Positions 1,677 to 39,522 of a stretch of DNA of 64,000 bases are shown in pieces; within the stretch, counting starts at the first letter, position 1, and every line of letters starts with the position of its first letter. The notes beneath the pieces are model-generated. The model was given only the letters and a program-made list of their open reading frames with translations, did not search any database and was not told the origin of the DNA. Origin of the DNA: Flavobacteriaceae bacterium (GTDB lineage Bacteria; Bacteroidota; Bacteroidia; Flavobacteriales; Flavobacteriaceae). The stretch spans positions 39,704 to 103,703 of the forward strand of contig JALQTJ010000003.1 of NCBI GenBank assembly GCA_023264015.1. Reading direction: 5' to 3'. Both the position numbers and the translations under genes were made by a program.

Positions 1677-1818
1677 GCTTTATTTTTTTGGCTCACCAAT
1701 ATAGCTATTCTCAAAGGTTTGTTTGCGCTTGAGAGGCCTAAAAAAAGAGGAATTTTTGAAATAATTTATGGCGATGTCCTTGTTTTTTATAAATGCTTTT
1801 CTGTATTTAGCGCGAAAT

Positions 1819-1878
1819 ATGAACAAGACTACCCAAAATTCATTTGCCTATTTTACTTTTTACCGCGTGAAGCGATAA
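1819..1878 (+). CDS. putative Phe/Tyr leader peptide MNKTTQNSFAYFTFYRVKR
   Basis: Short ORF dense in F/Y codons, ending just before mutually exclusive stem-loops upstream of pheA. Confidence 0.75.
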   Translation: MNKTTQNSFAYFTFYRVKR

Positions 1879-1880
1879 GA

Positions 1881-1943
1881 GGGGCTTTTGGTTTTGTAGT
1901 ATCAAAGAATAGTAAAGTCCCGATTTATCGGGGCTTTTTTTTT
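1881..1943 (+). promoter_or_regulatory. transcription attenuator: antiterminator arm plus intrinsic terminator
   Basis: Arm GGGGCTTTT (1881-1889) can pair with AAAGTCCC (1914-1921), which is also the 5' arm of terminator AGTCCCGAT/ATCGGGGCT followed by a T run (1935-1942). Confidence 0.75.
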
Positions 1944-1956
1944 GAACCTAAAGAAG

Positions 1957-2793
1957 ATGAAAGTAGGAATTCAAGGTACAATCGGATCGAATCATCACAA
2001 GGTGGCTCGGGAGCTTTATGGCGAAGCGGTAGCCTGTGTGGAGTGCACTTCTTTTTCGGCTTTAGCTGAAGGATTAGTGAAGGGGAGTTTCGATGAGGCG
2101 GTAATGGCTATTGAAAATTCGATTGCCGGAGCTATTCTGCCCAATTACAATCTGATTTATTCAAACGGTTTCCAGATTCTCTCTGAATGCTATCTAAGTA
2201 TCTCTCACAATCTGATGGGACTTAAAGGCCAAGGTTTAGAGCACATTAAAAGGGTAGAGTCTCACCCTATGGCATTGCTGCAATGTGCTACCTATTTTGA
2301 GGACAAATCATTCACATTGGTAGAAGCTGACGATACTGCATCTGTTGCGCGTCGTATAGCTGATGAGCACTTAGAAGGTATAGCTGCGATTGCACCCGTT
2401 GAGGCAGCCACTTTGTTTGGGCTTGATATTTTAGCTCATGACATACAAACCTTGACCTCAAATGCGACTCGTTTTGTGCGCCTTAGCCGTTCTTCAGACG
2501 CTCAAGAAGCCAGTAATGAACGTTTAAATAAGGCCTCGTTACGTTTTGTGACTGGCCATAAGCGAGGAAGTTTAGCCACCATTTTGAATGTAATGAGTGA
2601 TTGCAATTTGAATCTAACTAAGATCCAGTCGCTACCCATCATTGAAACACCATGGAAATACGCCTTCTTTGTCGATGTGACTTTCGAAGAATTAAGTGCC
2701 TTTGAGAAGGCGGCAGCAGCCTTGAATATCATGGCCGATAGTTTTACCGTATTAGGGCTTTATACAAATCAGCTAAAGACGACTGAATTATGA
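1957..2793 (+). CDS. pheA: prephenate dehydratase with ACT domain
   Basis: MKVGIQGTIGSNHHKVARE, NATRFVRLSR, GSLATILNVMSDCNLNLTKIQSLPI; ATG at 1957 preferred over the TTG in the terminator T-tract. Confidence 0.93.
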   Translation: MKVGIQGTIGSNHHKVARELYGEAVACVECTSFSALAEGLVKGSFDEAVMAIENSIAGAILPNYNLIYSNGFQILSECYLSISHNLMGLKGQGLEHIKRVESHPMALLQCATYFEDKSFTLVEADDTASVARRIADEHLEGIAAIAPVEAATLFGLDILAHDIQTLTSNATRFVRLSRSSDAQEASNERLNKASLRFVTGHKRGSLATILNVMSDCNLNLTKIQSLPIIETPWKYAFFVDVTFEELSAFEKAAAALNIMADSFTVLGLYTNQLKTTEL

Positions 2794-3938
2794 GAGAGGC
2801 GAAACGATTAAAACGCGTTAGCGAATACTACTTCTCAAAGAAGCTGAAAGAGATAAAAGAAAAAGTAGCTGCAGGAGTACCTATCATCAACATGGGTATT
2901 GGTAGTCCAGATTTAGACGCTCCTTCATCAGCTATTGGAGGACTCATTGAAGCCCTTTCTGAAAAGGGCGTTCATCAATACCAGAGTTATGTAGGTAGGG
3001 ATGAGTTGCGCGAAGCATTTGCTTCGTTCTATGCTACACATTACGGTGTTCGCTTGAATCCTGTGAACGAGGTATTACCTCTAATGGGCTCTAAGGAAGG
3101 TATTTTTCACATCAGTATGGCCTTTCTGAATCCGAAAGACGTGGTTTTGATTCCGAATCCTGGTTATCCTACCTACGCTTCTGTGGCTGAATTGGTTGGT
3201 GCCCGCGCAGTAGGTTACCCCCTCGACGAAGAAGGGTTGCCAGATCTCAGTGCCATTGACGAAAAATTAATGGACCGTGCGGTCATGATGTGGGTGAACT
3301 ATCCGCATATGCCTACAGGAATTACCTTAAAAGAGAATGGATTCAAGCGCATTATTAACTTGGCAAAGGAGCACGATCTTTTAGTGATAAACGATAATCC
3401 CTACAGTTTTATCGGAAATGCACATCCGACATCTATTTTAGCAGAAACCGGGGGCTATTCAAAGGTTCTTGAATTGAATTCGCTCAGTAAAGTCTTCAAT
3501 ATGGCCGGATGGCGCGTTGGAGCCTTACTGGGTTCAAAAGAACTCTTACAGTCTGTACTCAAGGTGAAATCGAACATGGACTCAGGAATGTTCTTTGGTA
3601 TTCAGCGTGCTGCTGCGAAAGCTTTAGCAGAATCGGCGTCTTGGTTCAGCCAGCTCAATGATGTGTATATGCAACGCCGAAAACTGGTCGAGCTCTTAGC
3701 CAAGGATTTAAACCTTGAAGTAATGCCTGATCAAACGGGTATGTTTGTCTGGTGTCGCTTGCCGAAGGGAATAAAAAGTGAGGTGTTTACCGATAAACTT
3801 CTAGAAGAGCATGCCATTTTCTGTGCTCCGGGATTCATATTCGGATCAGAAGGAAAGCGGTTTGTACGCTTTTCGCTCTGTCTTAGTGCAGATCAAATTG
3901 AGAAAGCAATCATGCGTGTAAAAACTGGAGAATTATGA
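2790..3938 (+). CDS. class I/II PLP-dependent aminotransferase (likely aromatic in this operon)
   Basis: MGIGSPDLDAP, NPGYPTY, SLSKVFNMAGWRVG. Confidence 0.9.
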   Translation: MREAKRLKRVSEYYFSKKLKEIKEKVAAGVPIINMGIGSPDLDAPSSAIGGLIEALSEKGVHQYQSYVGRDELREAFASFYATHYGVRLNPVNEVLPLMGSKEGIFHISMAFLNPKDVVLIPNPGYPTYASVAELVGARAVGYPLDEEGLPDLSAIDEKLMDRAVMMWVNYPHMPTGITLKENGFKRIINLAKEHDLLVINDNPYSFIGNAHPTSILAETGGYSKVLELNSLSKVFNMAGWRVGALLGSKELLQSVLKVKSNMDSGMFFGIQRAAAKALAESASWFSQLNDVYMQRRKLVELLAKDLNLEVMPDQTGMFVWCRLPKGIKSEVFTDKLLEEHAIFCAPGFIFGSEGKRFVRFSLCLSADQIEKAIMRVKTGEL

Positions 3939-4792
3939 AGCTAGCGGTCATTGGAGTAGGATTGATCGGCGGGTCTTGGGCCAAGGCCCTGAAAAATTCA
4001 GGGGTGGTCTCTTCGGTCTTAGGCATTGATCGCAGTGAAGAGCATTTGAGCCAGGCCGTGGCCCTTGGAATTATTGATGATAAAGCCTCCTATGCAGATC
4101 TCACCGCGGTTGATATGGTGTTCTTGAGTATTCCGGTAGATCAAATGGTTATCGAATTGCCTAAGGTGTTAGATGCTGTAGGAGAGCAAACGGTAGTTAT
4201 TGATGCGGGTTCAACGAAACTTCAACTCTGTGAAGCCGTCGCCTCGCATCCGAAAAGAAGAAATTTTTTAGCCGCTCACCCCATTGCGGGTACAGAATAT
4301 TCAGGGCCTTCAGCTGCCATCGATAACCTGTACGAGGGCAAATTGGCTATCGTTTGTGAAGTCGAAAAGACGGCAATTGATCTTCAAGAGCGCGCGATGA
4401 ATGCCTTTGCGGCACTTCAAATGCGGGTGCGTTACATGGGAGCTAAAGAGCACGATATTCACGTGGCCTACGTCTCGCATCTATCTCACATCAGCGCCTT
4501 CATGTTAGGCAAAACGGTGATGGGCAAAGAAAAGGACGATCGAAACATTTTTGACTTGGCAGGAAGTGGGTTCGCCTCAACCGTCCGCCTTGCTAAAAGT
4601 TCACCTCAGATGTGGGCTCCCATTTTTGTCCAGAACAAAGAGCCGCTTTTAGAAACCCTTGACGCCTACATCGAAAACCTCAATGCGTTTCGAACCCTCA
4701 TCGCTGAAGAGGATCTGGAGTCACTCTTGCATGAAATGAAACGCATAAATAGCATAGAAAAAATATTAAACCCTTTACCTTTAAAGCCTTAA
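3935..4792 (+). CDS. tyrA: prephenate dehydrogenase
   Basis: MKLAVIGVGLIGGSWAKAL, HPIAGTEYSGP, YVSHLSHISAF. Confidence 0.93.
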   Translation: MKLAVIGVGLIGGSWAKALKNSGVVSSVLGIDRSEEHLSQAVALGIIDDKASYADLTAVDMVFLSIPVDQMVIELPKVLDAVGEQTVVIDAGSTKLQLCEAVASHPKRRNFLAAHPIAGTEYSGPSAAIDNLYEGKLAIVCEVEKTAIDLQERAMNAFAALQMRVRYMGAKEHDIHVAYVSHLSHISAFMLGKTVMGKEKDDRNIFDLAGSGFASTVRLAKSSPQMWAPIFVQNKEPLLETLDAYIENLNAFRTLIAEEDLESLLHEMKRINSIEKILNPLPLKP

Positions 4793-4801
4793 ATCACAAT
4801 C

Positions 4802-5884
4802 ATGGAAAATTCGAAGAAGTTACGCAGCTGGTTAGATGAGATGCAATTGACGCATCCTCTTGTTATTGCTGGCCCTTGTAGTGCCGAGACTGAATCTCAG
4901 GTCATGCAGATCGCACACGATCTCAAGGATACCGATGTTAACTATTACCGCGCCGGAATATGGAAGCCGAGAACTCGCCCTGGAAACTTTGAAGGGGTAG
5001 GAGCTATCGGATTGAAATGGTTACAGCGTGTTAAAGAAGAAACAGGCATGAAAACGGCGACTGAGGTGGCCAATCGTGCACATGTTGATTTAGCGCTTGA
5101 ACACGATATTGATTTACTATGGATCGGAGCGCGCTCGACCGTGAGTCCTTTTATCGTTCAAGAAATTGCAGATGCCCTAGAAGGAACAGATAAGATCGTT
5201 TTGGTCAAGAATCCGGTAAATCCTGATTTGTCTCTGTGGATAGGAGCTGTAGAGCGCCTTCATAACGCAAACATTGAAAAATTAGGGGTGATCCACCGTG
5301 GATTCTCTTCGTACAAGAAGACCATGTACCGTAACCTTCCTGAATGGCAGATCGCCATTGATCTACAGTCTAAGTTCCCTGACCTTCCGATCATCAATGA
5401 TCCAAGTCATATTTCTGGACGTCGCGACCTCATTTTTGACGTGTCACAAACGGCGCTAGATTTAAATTTTGACGGATTAATGATCGAAACCCATTGTGAT
5501 CCTGATAATGCGTGGAGTGATGCCGCTCAGCAGGTTACCCCTGAACGTCTTGTGGAGATCTTTAAGACATTAAAAGTGCGCAAGCCAGGAGATGATGAGG
5601 CCGAATTTCATGCTGCATTGAACCAATTGCGTTCTCAAATCGATTTACTAGACTCTTCTTTGCTTGACACCATGGGCGATAGAATGAAGGTAGCTATGTC
5701 GATCGGTCAATTGAAAAAAGACCGCAATGTGGCGGTGTTGCAGTCCAATCGTTGGAATGAAATTCTTGGACGTATGATTCTCGAAGGAGAGCAACGTGGA
5801 TTGAGCGAGGAGTTTGTTTTGAAACTCTTTAAGAGTATACACCAAGAATCGATCCGTCATCAAGAGAAGATCATGAAGCAATAG
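4802..5884 (+). CDS. bifunctional 3-deoxy-7-phosphoheptulonate synthase / chorismate mutase
   Basis: VIAGPCSAETESQV, WKPRTRPGNFEGVG, DPSHISGRRDL; C-terminal chorismate mutase helices RSQIDLLDSSLLDTMGDRMKVAMSIG. Confidence 0.93.
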   Translation: MENSKKLRSWLDEMQLTHPLVIAGPCSAETESQVMQIAHDLKDTDVNYYRAGIWKPRTRPGNFEGVGAIGLKWLQRVKEETGMKTATEVANRAHVDLALEHDIDLLWIGARSTVSPFIVQEIADALEGTDKIVLVKNPVNPDLSLWIGAVERLHNANIEKLGVIHRGFSSYKKTMYRNLPEWQIAIDLQSKFPDLPIINDPSHISGRRDLIFDVSQTALDLNFDGLMIETHCDPDNAWSDAAQQVTPERLVEIFKTLKVRKPGDDEAEFHAALNQLRSQIDLLDSSLLDTMGDRMKVAMSIGQLKKDRNVAVLQSNRWNEILGRMILEGEQRGLSEEFVLKLFKSIHQESIRHQEKIMKQ

Positions 5885-5889
5885 TTTGA

Positions 5890-6837
5890 ATGCACGGACT
5901 TGTCTATAAATCAACCGGTAGCTGGTATCAGGTCAAGTCTGACGACGGACTTGAGTACGCCTGCCGCATCAAAGGCAAGTTTCGCATTCAAGGTATAAAA
6001 TCTACCAACCCTGTCGCCGTAGGTGACCGGGTTGTTTTTTCTACGGAAGTTATTGGAGACGAAGAGGTCGGCGTGATTACGGCTATTGAACCGCGTCAGA
6101 ATTACCTCGTCCGTCGATCGGTAAATCTATCAAAGCAATTGCACGTCATTGCGGCCAACATCGACCAGATATTTTTGGTGATCACCTTAAAAAATCCGCA
6201 GACATACGCCGCCTTTATTGACCGTTTTTTGGTGAGCGCAGCAGCCTACCACATTGAGGTGGTTTTGGTGTTCAACAAGTGGGATACCTATGATGAACAA
6301 GAAGTAATTAAGGCCGAAGAGCTGTTAGAAGTTTATGCTTCAATAGGCTATCAAACACTAAAAACAAGTGCGAAAAGCCGATTGGGATGCGAAGAACTTA
6401 AGGCGCTCATGAAAGACAAGACGAGTATTTTTGCCGGAAATTCGGGTGTAGGAAAGTCAAGTCTCATCAATGCCGTAGAGCCCAACCTAGAATTGAAGAC
6501 CTCTAGCACTTCAGAACAGCATCAGCAAGGACAACACACCACCACTTTTGCTCAAATGTTTGATATTAGTTTTGGCGGAAGAATTATAGATACTCCAGGT
6601 ATACGTGGCTTTGGTGTTGCGACCTTAGAACGGAATGAAATTGGCGATTATTTCAAAGAGTTTTTCGCCCTAAAGTCAGACTGTAAATTTCACAATTGCC
6701 TTCATGATAATGAGCCCCATTGCGCAGTAAAGCAGGCGCTTGAGCGCGGTGCTATCGCTCAAAGCCGCTACGACAGTTATATCGGATTGCTCACGGACCC
6801 TGAAGGCCCTTATAGAACAGATAATTACGGACAATGA
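5890..6837 (+). CDS. rsgA: ribosome small subunit-dependent GTPase A
   Basis: [15 protein letters not shown], circularly permuted GTPase, zinc-binding [16 protein letters not shown]. Confidence 0.95.
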
Positions 6838-7286
6838 GAGCAGTAATTCAACGTGTCTCAAAGGCCTCGGTTGAGGTAGAGGGTAAGATTGTGGGAGCCA
6901 TCGAAAATGGATTCATGGTGCTCCTGGGCGTCACTCATGAAGATGATGAAGAAGATGCTAAATGGTTGGCCACCAAATTAGCGCAAATGCGGGTTTTTAG
7001 CGATGAAGAAGACAAAATGAATCTCGATATAAGCCAGGTGGGTGGTCGGGTTTTAGTGGTCTCTCAATTCACCTTGTATGGCGCTACCAAGAAAGGAAAT
7101 CGCCCTTCTTTCATTAATGCGGCGCGACCAGAACAGGCAGAACGCTTATACCAATTCTTCACCTCTTTTTTAGAGGAGTGCCTAGGCACCTCAGTGGAAT
7201 GCGGGGTATTCGGGGCGGATATGAAAGTGTCTCTGGTCAATGATGGTCCGGTTACTTTAATTATGGATACAAAAAATAAGGAATAA
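6834..7286 (+). CDS. dtd: D-aminoacyl-tRNA deacylase
   Basis: [45 protein letters not shown]. Confidence 0.96.
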
Positions 7287-7618
7287 TGGATGCAATAACG
7301 ATTACTCAAGAGCGTGTAGACCGTTGGATCAAAGAACACGGCGTACGCTACTTTAATGAGTTAACCAATATGGCTCAGCTTACAGAAGAAGTAGGTGAGG
7401 TGGCACGCATTATTGCAAGGCGCTACGGAGAACAGAGTGAAAAGCCATCAGACAAAGAGGTAGATCTAGGCGAAGAACTCGCAGATGTTTTATTTGTGGT
7501 GCTCTGCTTAGCCAATCAGACCGGGGTAGATTTACAAGCCGCTTTTGATAAAAAATTAGCGCATAAATCTAGCCGTGATCACGACAGGCATCACAACAAT
7601 CCTAAATTAAAATCATGA
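7286..7618 (+). CDS. MazG-like nucleotide pyrophosphohydrolase
   Basis: LTEEVGEVARIIARRYGEQ, DLGEELADVLFVVLCLA. Confidence 0.9.
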   Translation: MDAITITQERVDRWIKEHGVRYFNELTNMAQLTEEVGEVARIIARRYGEQSEKPSDKEVDLGEELADVLFVVLCLANQTGVDLQAAFDKKLAHKSSRDHDRHHNNPKLKS

Positions 7619-8847
7619 AGGCATTGCAGGTGCATTGCGCACAGCCTATAGCGCAACAACATATTACCTTAACGGGGTCTAAAAGCGAAACGAATCGCGT
7701 GCTGTTGTTGCAGGCGCTCTATCCCAATCTAGAGTTATTGAACGATTCAAATGCCCATGATGTGGCCATGATGAAGCAAGGACTCTCGAAGACTAGCGGA
7801 ACGGTCGATATACACCATGCGGGCACGGCAATGCGCTTTTTGACCGCCTATTTTGCTACTCTTGAGGGTTCAGATGTACTTCTTACGGGAAGCGCACGAA
7901 TGAAGCAACGACCGATTAAGATTTTAGTTGACGCCTTGAGAGCCTTAGGCGCCGAGGTGACGTATGCTGAAAACGAAGGGTTTCCGCCTTTACAGATAAA
8001 AGGTAAGGCCTTAGAAGGAGGGAGTTTACGGATGAGAGCAGATGTTAGTAGTCAGTACTTGTCTGCTTTGTGTTTGGTGGCGCCTAAGTTTCAGAAGGGG
8101 CTATCCTTAACTTTTGAGGGCGATCTGACCTCTATCCCTTACCTTAAAATGACTCTCAAACTTTTAGAGTCAATCGGGATATCTTCAGCATTGAATCAAG
8201 AGGGCGTTCGAGTTTTTAGTAAAGATAGCATCGAAGATCAAGCCTTGGCTGTAGAGTCTGATTGGAGCGCCGCAAGCTATTACTACAGTATTGTGGCCTT
8301 GTCTCCAGTGGGCACCTCAATGCGCTTAAGTGTATTAAAGAATGACTCCCTTCAAGGTGATCGTGTACTTGCTGATCTATATGCCGACTTCGGTGTTGAA
8401 ACACGTTTTGATTCAAATACCGTACACCTTCAGAAAATAGGCGCTGCAATCGACGCGGTAACATACGATCTAAGGGACGCCCCGGATATTGCTCAGACCA
8501 TTGCTGTAACTGCCGCTGGTCTAGGAATGCATTGCAAGATGACCGGTTTACACACTTTACCTATAAAAGAGACGGATCGCTTGGCAGCGATGAAAACAGA
8601 GCTTGAAAAGTGCGGGGTTCAGGTGACGATTACCGATGAATCATTAGAGGTTCACGCGCGTAAACAAGCGTTAGTCTCAGCAACCATTTCAACCTACAAT
8701 GACCACCGTATGGCAATGGCATTCGCGCCTTTGGCTCTTTGTGTCCCGCTCATTATAGAAGACCCACTAGTCGTAGAAAAATCGTACCCGGACTTTTGGA
8801 AAGACATTGAGTCATTGGGTTATGACTGCACAACAAAAGCAGAATAA
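7615..8847 (+). CDS. aroA: 3-phosphoshikimate 1-carboxyvinyltransferase
   Basis: LTGSKSETNRVLLL, HAGTAMRFLTAYFA, KETDRLAAM, YNDHRMAMAFA. Confidence 0.95.
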   Translation: MKALQVHCAQPIAQQHITLTGSKSETNRVLLLQALYPNLELLNDSNAHDVAMMKQGLSKTSGTVDIHHAGTAMRFLTAYFATLEGSDVLLTGSARMKQRPIKILVDALRALGAEVTYAENEGFPPLQIKGKALEGGSLRMRADVSSQYLSALCLVAPKFQKGLSLTFEGDLTSIPYLKMTLKLLESIGISSALNQEGVRVFSKDSIEDQALAVESDWSAASYYYSIVALSPVGTSMRLSVLKNDSLQGDRVLADLYADFGVETRFDSNTVHLQKIGAAIDAVTYDLRDAPDIAQTIAVTAAGLGMHCKMTGLHTLPIKETDRLAAMKTELEKCGVQVTITDESLEVHARKQALVSATISTYNDHRMAMAFAPLALCVPLIIEDPLVVEKSYPDFWKDIESLGYDCTTKAE

Positions 8848-8858
8848 TCTAAATTCCC

Positions 8859-8890
8859 TTGACTTTGGGGTTTTCGCAATAGTATCTTTG
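8859..8890 (+). promoter_or_regulatory. Bacteroidota-type promoter for queA
   Basis: TTG (8859-8861) - N21 - TATCTTTG (8883-8890), matches -7 consensus TAnnTTTG. Confidence 0.7.
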
Positions 8891-39158: not shown

Positions 39159-39187
39159 AAGAAAAGCACCGCCTGAAGCGGTGCTTT
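39159..39187 (-). terminator. intrinsic terminator after rpsO
   Basis: Minus strand AAAGCACCGC-TTCAG-GCGGTGCTTT then TTCTTT. Confidence 0.88.
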
Positions 39188-39191
39188 ATGT

Positions 39192-39461
39192 TTATTTACG
39201 AATACCTAATTCTTTGATTAAAGAACGGTATTTTTCAATATCGTTATTCTTGAGGTAATCGAGTAAACTTCTGCGCTTACCTACTAGTTTTACTAACGAA
39301 CGCTCTGTGTTAAAATCCTTGTGATTTTTCTTTAAGTGCTCTGTTAAGTAATTAATGCGGTAGGTGAAAAGAGCAATCTGCCCTTCTGTTGAACCGGTGT
39401 TTTTTTCGGTTCCACCGTACTGTTTGAAGATTTCAGCCTTCTTTTCTTTACTTAAATACAT
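39192..39461 (-). CDS. rpsO: 30S ribosomal protein S15
   Basis: MYLSKEKKAEIFKQYGGTEKNTGSTEGQIALFTYRINYLTEHLKKNHKDFNTERSLVKLVGKRRSLLDYL. Confidence 0.98.
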   Translation of the reverse strand: MYLSKEKKAEIFKQYGGTEKNTGSTEGQIALFTYRINYLTEHLKKNHKDFNTERSLVKLVGKRRSLLDYLKNNDIEKYRSLIKELGIRK

Positions 39462-39491
39462 TCCAATATTGTGTTAATGATTTTTATGTAT

Positions 39492-39510
39492 CTCATTGAC
39501 TATCAATGAG
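39492..39510 (-). promoter_or_regulatory. rpsO leader stem-loop near the predicted transcript 5' end
   Basis: CTCATTGA-CTA-TCAATGAG, just downstream of minus-strand TATCTTTG (39515-39522). Confidence 0.6.
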
Positions 39511-39514
39511 GGCG

Positions 39515-39522
39515 CAAAGATA
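39515..39522 (-). promoter_or_regulatory. -7 element of rpsO promoter (TATCTTTG on minus strand)
   Basis: Exact TAnnTTTG; no clear TTG at -33. Confidence 0.5.

Follow-up and report, generated by a model that had tools for sequence, protein, structure and literature searches.

A putative ribosome-mediated transcription attenuator with a Phe- and Tyr-rich leader peptide upstream of the aromatic amino acid operon in Flavobacteriaceae

Leader region and the operon that follows it

What lies in the 280-nt gap between a divergent deoxynucleoside kinase (dNK) gene and the ATG of pheA at position 1957, and does it govern the genes that follow? In the 64,000-nt stretch of Flavobacteriaceae DNA analyzed here (the window), an initial annotation had placed in this gap a complete attenuator controlling a Phe/Tyr operon. 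The leader peptide open reading frame (ORF) that it described, MNKTTQNSFAYFTFYRVKR (1819-1878, plus strand), is present as stated and is conserved in the genus and the family. It consists of 19 codons and a TAA stop and carries three Phe and two Tyr codons (F9, Y11, F12, F14, and Y15, within FAYFTFY). The first base of arm 2, GGGGCTTTT (1881-1889), is the third nucleotide past the leader stop; on sequence, folding, and covariation in relatives, arm 2 is the 5' strand of an antiterminator. Arm 3, AAAGTCCCGA (1914-1923), is both the 3' strand of the antiterminator and the 5' strand of an intrinsic terminator. As had been claimed, its AAAGTCCC portion (1914-1921) pairs with arm 2, folding into eight pairs, one of them G-U, at -11.8 kcal/mol. 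Arm 4, TCGGGGCTTT, together with the U tract occupies 1928-1943 and was identified by terminator scan and covariation; the hairpin AAAGTCCCGA-TTTA-TCGGGGCTTT (1914-1937) folds at -13.4 kcal/mol and runs into U residues at 1935-1943. The terminator, said to share the antiterminator arm and to end less than about 20 nt before pheA, thus spans 1914-1943 and ends 13 nt before the ATG, which itself lies 78 nt from the leader stop.

The word "complete" held for the ORF, the antiterminator (2:3), and the terminator (3:4), all at the coordinates given, but a covarying stem inside the ORF had been missed. Its 5' strand, arm 1, ACTACCCAAAA (1828-1838), lies within the leader ORF and pairs with 1886-1891 and 1896-1900 (TTTTGG..GTAGT), so that the 3' part of arm 2 also pairs with arm 1. 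This 1:2 stem is present in the minimum free energy (MFE) fold, and compensatory changes are seen in the clade of the window.

Of all sites resembling a terminator in the first 12 kb of the window, the one before pheA ranks top. Shuffling the 280-nt gap 2,000 times with dinucleotides preserved gave an ORF with five or more F/Y in seven residues 36 times, but never a terminator of equal score (0/2,000) and never such an ORF with such a terminator after it (0/2,000); together with the conservation described below, these counts rule out chance assembly of leader and terminator. The hairpin was also rejected as a terminator of the upstream gene. Because dNK is on the minus strand and starts at 1676, the hairpin can end no plus-strand transcript except that of the leader.

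The leader peptide is cognate to an operon that includes both pheA and tyrA. Eight genes from pheA to aroA, including rsgA, dtd, and a MazG-like gene, had been named as the controlled unit, and Pfam bears these names out. All on the plus strand, they encode prephenate dehydratase (pheA, 1957-2793; PF00800, E 5.7e-48), a class I/II aminotransferase (2790-3938; PF00155), prephenate dehydrogenase (tyrA, 3935-4792; PF02153/PF20463), DAHP synthase fused to chorismate mutase (4802-5884; PF00793/PF01817), a ribosome-assembly GTPase (rsgA, 5890-6837; PF03193), D-aminoacyl-tRNA(Tyr) deacylase (dtd, 6834-7286; PF02580), a MazG-like nucleotide pyrophosphohydrolase (7286-7618; PF03819), and EPSP synthase (aroA, 7615-8847; PF00275). 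Neighboring genes overlap or sit within 10 nt of one another. No terminator was found after aroA; a -7-like box, TATCTTTG, with an upstream TTG (8882-8889) precedes queA (8917) and is likely a separate promoter directly past the end of aroA. Because queA has this box of its own, the operon probably ends at aroA, and an eight-gene unit is a fair reading.

Conservation of the leader and covariation of its stems

We gathered pheA upstream regions from the genus, family, order, and class of the window. Conservation of the short ORF had been named in advance as a check that could refute the attenuator, and a leader ORF rich in F/Y, with a terminator after it, occurs in 149 of 150 sampled Flavobacteriaceae pheA loci, the one exception being a locus on a truncated contig, in which the upstream region is only about 155 nt long. 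An aromatic density of seven or more F/Y/W per 10 residues is reached by 149 of 158 family loci, compared to 0.3% of shuffles. Outside the order of the window, where the leader alone was scored, 18 of 30 pheA loci of Bacteroidia reach this density; within the order, two families are mostly without a leader (1/21 loci in f4 and 1/10 in f15). A covariance model, R1, finds 80 of 121 loci, which is a lower bound since divergent leaders such as that of genome G065 are missed. Second matches to R1 in three genomes (G109, G045, and G029) were rejected as attenuators, as they look like gene-end terminators without an aromatic leader, and a second match in the window (39159-39238, minus strand) is mostly a match to the terminator. 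The window also carries, at 39459-39522 on the minus strand, an Rfam S15-Flavobacteria ribosomal protein leader (67.9 bits).

The peptide itself takes the form M..YFWNGFYFYFFFKRGTGLF/L in the largest clade and is of the type M..YTYFNNWFYFFFSKRNEALYV in Flavobacterium-like genomes. Across genera, the residues around the aromatics change completely and the F/Y runs stay, and this free variation of the flanks beside persistent F/Y runs indicates selection on the codons. Within the block that is conserved among 57 aligned leaders (alignment A1), one aromatic residue (F, Y, or W) replaces another, and variation is greatest at the third codon position.

These patterns bear on the possibility that the leader is a TnaC-like arrest peptide sensing free Phe or Tyr, in which the nascent chain and its ligand, rather than an uncharged tRNA, would stall the ribosome. 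Strong conservation of a block, YFWNGFYFYFFF, within one large clade is what such a peptide might be expected to show, but the window peptide is without this block, the aromatic context is replaced from genus to genus while the F/Y runs persist, and F, Y, and W swap at the same position. The conserved peptide segments WNG and TGLL/TGLF, moreover, are explained by the 1:2 and 2:3 pairings of the RNA that encodes them. We therefore regard an arrest peptide as very improbable.

Covariation was assessed in A1 with the stems counted one by one, since they share columns. In the terminator 3:4, 98.1% of cells are paired and 7 of 10 pairs show two-sided changes (n = 57); in the antiterminator 2:3, 96.2% of cells are paired, with two-sided changes in five of seven pairs, a level that none of 500 shuffles reached. 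The search for covarying alternative stems that the initial annotation had proposed thus finds both of these stems covarying strongly. Stem 1:2 has 91.5% of cells paired and a covariation score above all 500 shuffles, and its counts of pairs and of pair types in A1 do not exceed those of the shuffles. When the 3' partner is shifted by one to three columns, pairing falls to 15-63%, whichever of the three stems is tested. In distant genera, arms 2, 3, and 4 change in concert, as in GAGCGGTC/GACCGCTC, GAGGCTTT/AAAGCCTC, CAGGACTTT/AAAGTCCTG, and AGCGGGA/TCCCGCT. Over all genera, the 2:3 helix is one that at most 5% of shuffles reach in 90% of 165 distinct leaders; the same test for 1:2 is weaker, at 30%, and outside the main clade the 1:2 helix appears less well supported than 2:3 and 3:4.

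In the genus of the window, the sequences themselves lend 1:2 direct support. Read by eye, the 1:2 stem of the window is CCAAAA/TTTTGG with ACTAC/GTAGT, which becomes GCTAC/GTGGT and ACTGC/GTGGT in its closest relatives and, elsewhere in its genus, ACAAAAG/CTTTTGT (L033), TAACGAC/GTCGTTA (G065), and TACAACGC/GCGTTGTA (G580/G582). Within 1:2, the main clade has a nested helix (columns 37-43/52-58) that is 92.2% paired without clear covariation. At codons 13-15 of A1 (TAC TTC TTT), all 57 leaders have TTC as codon 14 and none the synonymous TTT, and the nested hairpin may be the reason for this invariance.

The geometry and covariation of the arms also bear on a second alternative, that the short ORF governs pheA translation by coupling or re-initiation and that the hairpin terminates transcription constitutively or is unrelated to it. 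Some footing for this idea comes from Bacteroidetes, in which leader ORFs are often seen close to start codons (PMC4833913). Here, however, a strong terminator stands within the 78 nt that separate the leader stop from the pheA ATG, and the 13 nt between terminator and gene leave no space for another promoter. Covariation of arm 2 with the 5' arm of the terminator is likewise something that a translation-only model does not need, and we give this explanation very little credence. Taken together, the distribution of the element and the covariation of all three stems support a pheA attenuator as the rule in Flavobacteriaceae and a common feature of other Bacteroidia.

Ribosome position and the proposed mechanism

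To follow the RNA during translation of the leader, we folded the sequence 3' of the ribosome codon by codon, using a 15-nt footprint from the P site, which is the Escherichia coli value. With the A site at codons 9-17, a range that includes all five F/Y codons, the antiterminator is almost complete in RNA extending to the end of arm 3 (about 7.9 pairs). A ribosome at the stop codon instead masks arm 2, and 3:4 is then the stem that forms (about 8.9 pairs); in ribosome-free RNA the MFE fold is 1:2 plus 3:4. The switch that had been postulated, a readthrough fold with the ribosome at the F/Y codons and a terminator fold with the ribosome at the stop, is therefore what folding predicts. At several stall positions 3:4 is more stable than 2:3 at equilibrium, and the switch therefore depends, as it does in classic attenuators, on 2:3 being made before 3:4.

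The sequence and structural features of the ribosome-mediated attenuator class are found at this locus: a cluster of cognate codons, an intrinsic terminator, a 2:3 stem sharing an arm with that terminator, a 1:2 stem, and the stall/stop geometry. With its anatomy, conservation, three-stem covariation, and predicted ribosome-dependent folds established, we consider it highly probable that the Phe/Tyr operon is preceded by a ribosome-mediated transcription attenuator, whose ribosome stalling and in vivo response we infer to be as follows. Transcription would begin just 5' of the leader ORF. When both Phe-tRNA and Tyr-tRNA are charged, the ribosome would reach the stop codon and cover arm 2 (1881-1889), leaving arm 3 to pair with arm 4, and transcription would stop near 1943. 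If either tRNA lacks its amino acid, the ribosome would stall on one of the five F/Y codons and cover arm 1; arm 2 would then be free to pair with arm 3, the terminator would be blocked, and the operon would be transcribed. Without translation the 1:2 hairpin would form, making termination the default. Such a mechanism would need transcription-translation coupling, which is presumed here for this lineage.

Many leaders with alternative terminators and antiterminators in other phyla respond to proteins or small molecules, and the switch before pheA could in principle be driven in that way, by a riboswitch, a T-box, or an RNA-binding protein, with the ORF incidental. At the gathering threshold, no Rfam riboswitch or T-box was found in the window or in seven related loci, and a permissive scan of the leader stretch for these elements returned only one weak PreQ1 match on the minus strand (17.1 of 39 bits, E 0.28). 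Among 4,227 Rfam families, the best match for 1827-1943 is RF01859, Phe_leader (31.5 bits against a gathering cutoff of 55, E 0.00097), which is itself a leader-peptide attenuator. The ORF, moreover, matches the operon in its codons, is found at nearly every locus, and is under codon constraint, which is hard to reconcile with an incidental role, and the chance of a protein- or ligand-driven switch seems to us negligible.

Known systems, companion attenuators, and the promoter

Like Phe_leader, exemplified by E. coli pheL, the window element lies 5' of pheA and combines a Phe-rich leader ORF with alternative stems and an intrinsic terminator. It differs from its proteobacterial counterpart in that Tyr codons are as integral as Phe codons, in governing an operon for Phe, Tyr, and the common pathway, and in having a candidate Bacteroidota promoter and a predicted very short 5' UTR. 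The two would work alike, a likeness of mechanism that need not reflect common descent. The element also shares mechanism and architecture with the trp and his leader-peptide attenuators (RF00513 and RF00514), but those have other cognate amino acids, and it scores only 12.7 and 15.4 bits against them.

Most documented cases of leader-peptide attenuation come from Proteobacteria and Actinobacteria. Up to its own case in Firmicutes, a 2010 survey was aware of no such system in any other phylum (PMC2965389). In 2021, a transcriptome study of Flavobacterium psychrophilum reported strong clues of leader-peptide attenuation before amino acid operons, as well as a structured 5' element of pheA that is conserved in other Flavobacteriaceae genera and has no Rfam match (PMC9723704); for pheA, neither a peptide nor stems nor covariation is described in the main text of that study. 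This 5' element and the window attenuator very likely belong to the same family of element. The attenuator logic first noted here for a Bacteroidota is thus supported, but it is neither unique to this genome nor quite the first in its phylum, having been hinted at in Flavobacteriaceae by that study (PMC9723704). What is new is the covariation of three stems, the breadth of the element, companion Trp and His attenuators, and predicted 5' UTRs of 0-4 nt.

The Trp attenuator lies before trpE in the same genome (L230, contig C63 of G000, reverse complement of about 783-930). Its leader, MKRKNVSQLWWSPLLSNR, is followed by a terminator, AGAGCCTGTCATCACGACGGGCTCT, and a U tract, and the leader is conserved across the genus, where it has either WW or WWW. 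The His attenuator lies before hisG (L231, contig C60 of G000, reverse complement of about 1227-1370), with the leader MFLNHTHHHIFCSAQTS (HTHHH) followed by a GGCCCG...CGGGCC terminator, and is also conserved in the genus. On inspection, leuA-type genes had no obvious leader in the near upstream region. Among the second R1 matches in the genomes searched, only one is a related element: in genome G033, in which no pheA was found, the Trp-Trp peptide MTNNNTWWSNSKFYLKR precedes a DAHP synthase/chorismate mutase gene (L271, G033:C1:737900-739900, leader 269-322). Trp codons before DAHP synthase are what one would predict were leader codons to follow the pathway under control.

A candidate promoter for the pheA leader consists of a putative -33 element, TTG (1780-1782, plus strand), suggested by sequence and a family motif, and a putative -7 element, TATTTAG (1804-1810, plus strand), which is off-consensus and ends 8 nt before the leader ATG; its position is offered as a candidate only. 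This stretch hardly differs between the window and its closest relatives, and TAnnTT[TA]G occurs upstream of 130 of 165 family leaders, compared to 9.6% in shuffles. In F. psychrophilum, the -7 box TAnnTTTG is reported to span -12 to -5, and only 5.5% of mRNAs are leaderless (PMC9723704). In the genome studied here, the phe, trp, and his leader ORFs all begin 4-8 nt after a -7-like box (TATTTAG, TATCTTTG, and TACTTTTG, respectively, the first off consensus), and the F. psychrophilum spacing predicts 5' UTRs of about 4, about 2, and 0 nt. By that analogy, these three leader mRNAs should be leaderless or nearly so. Across the wider family, the phe box is most often found at a distance of 18 nt from the ATG, which would correspond to a UTR of around 14 nt.

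A broader generalization, which we put forward tentatively and hold to be possible though somewhat short of even odds, is that leader-peptide attenuators run the aromatic and his operons across the class Bacteroidia and are leaderless or nearly so in this lineage, with the pheA version sensing all aromatic tRNAs and Trp codons becoming dominant where pheA has been lost (as in the WW of G033). Model R1 could seed an Rfam family, which would aid annotation of hundreds of unannotated leader peptides. To our knowledge, transcription-translation coupling is little documented in Bacteroidota. The pheA attenuator predicts that tRNA charging would control the whole aromatic operon and that such coupling would be needed in Bacteroidota; if (near-)leaderless attenuation is class-wide, the coupling required would have to be tight.
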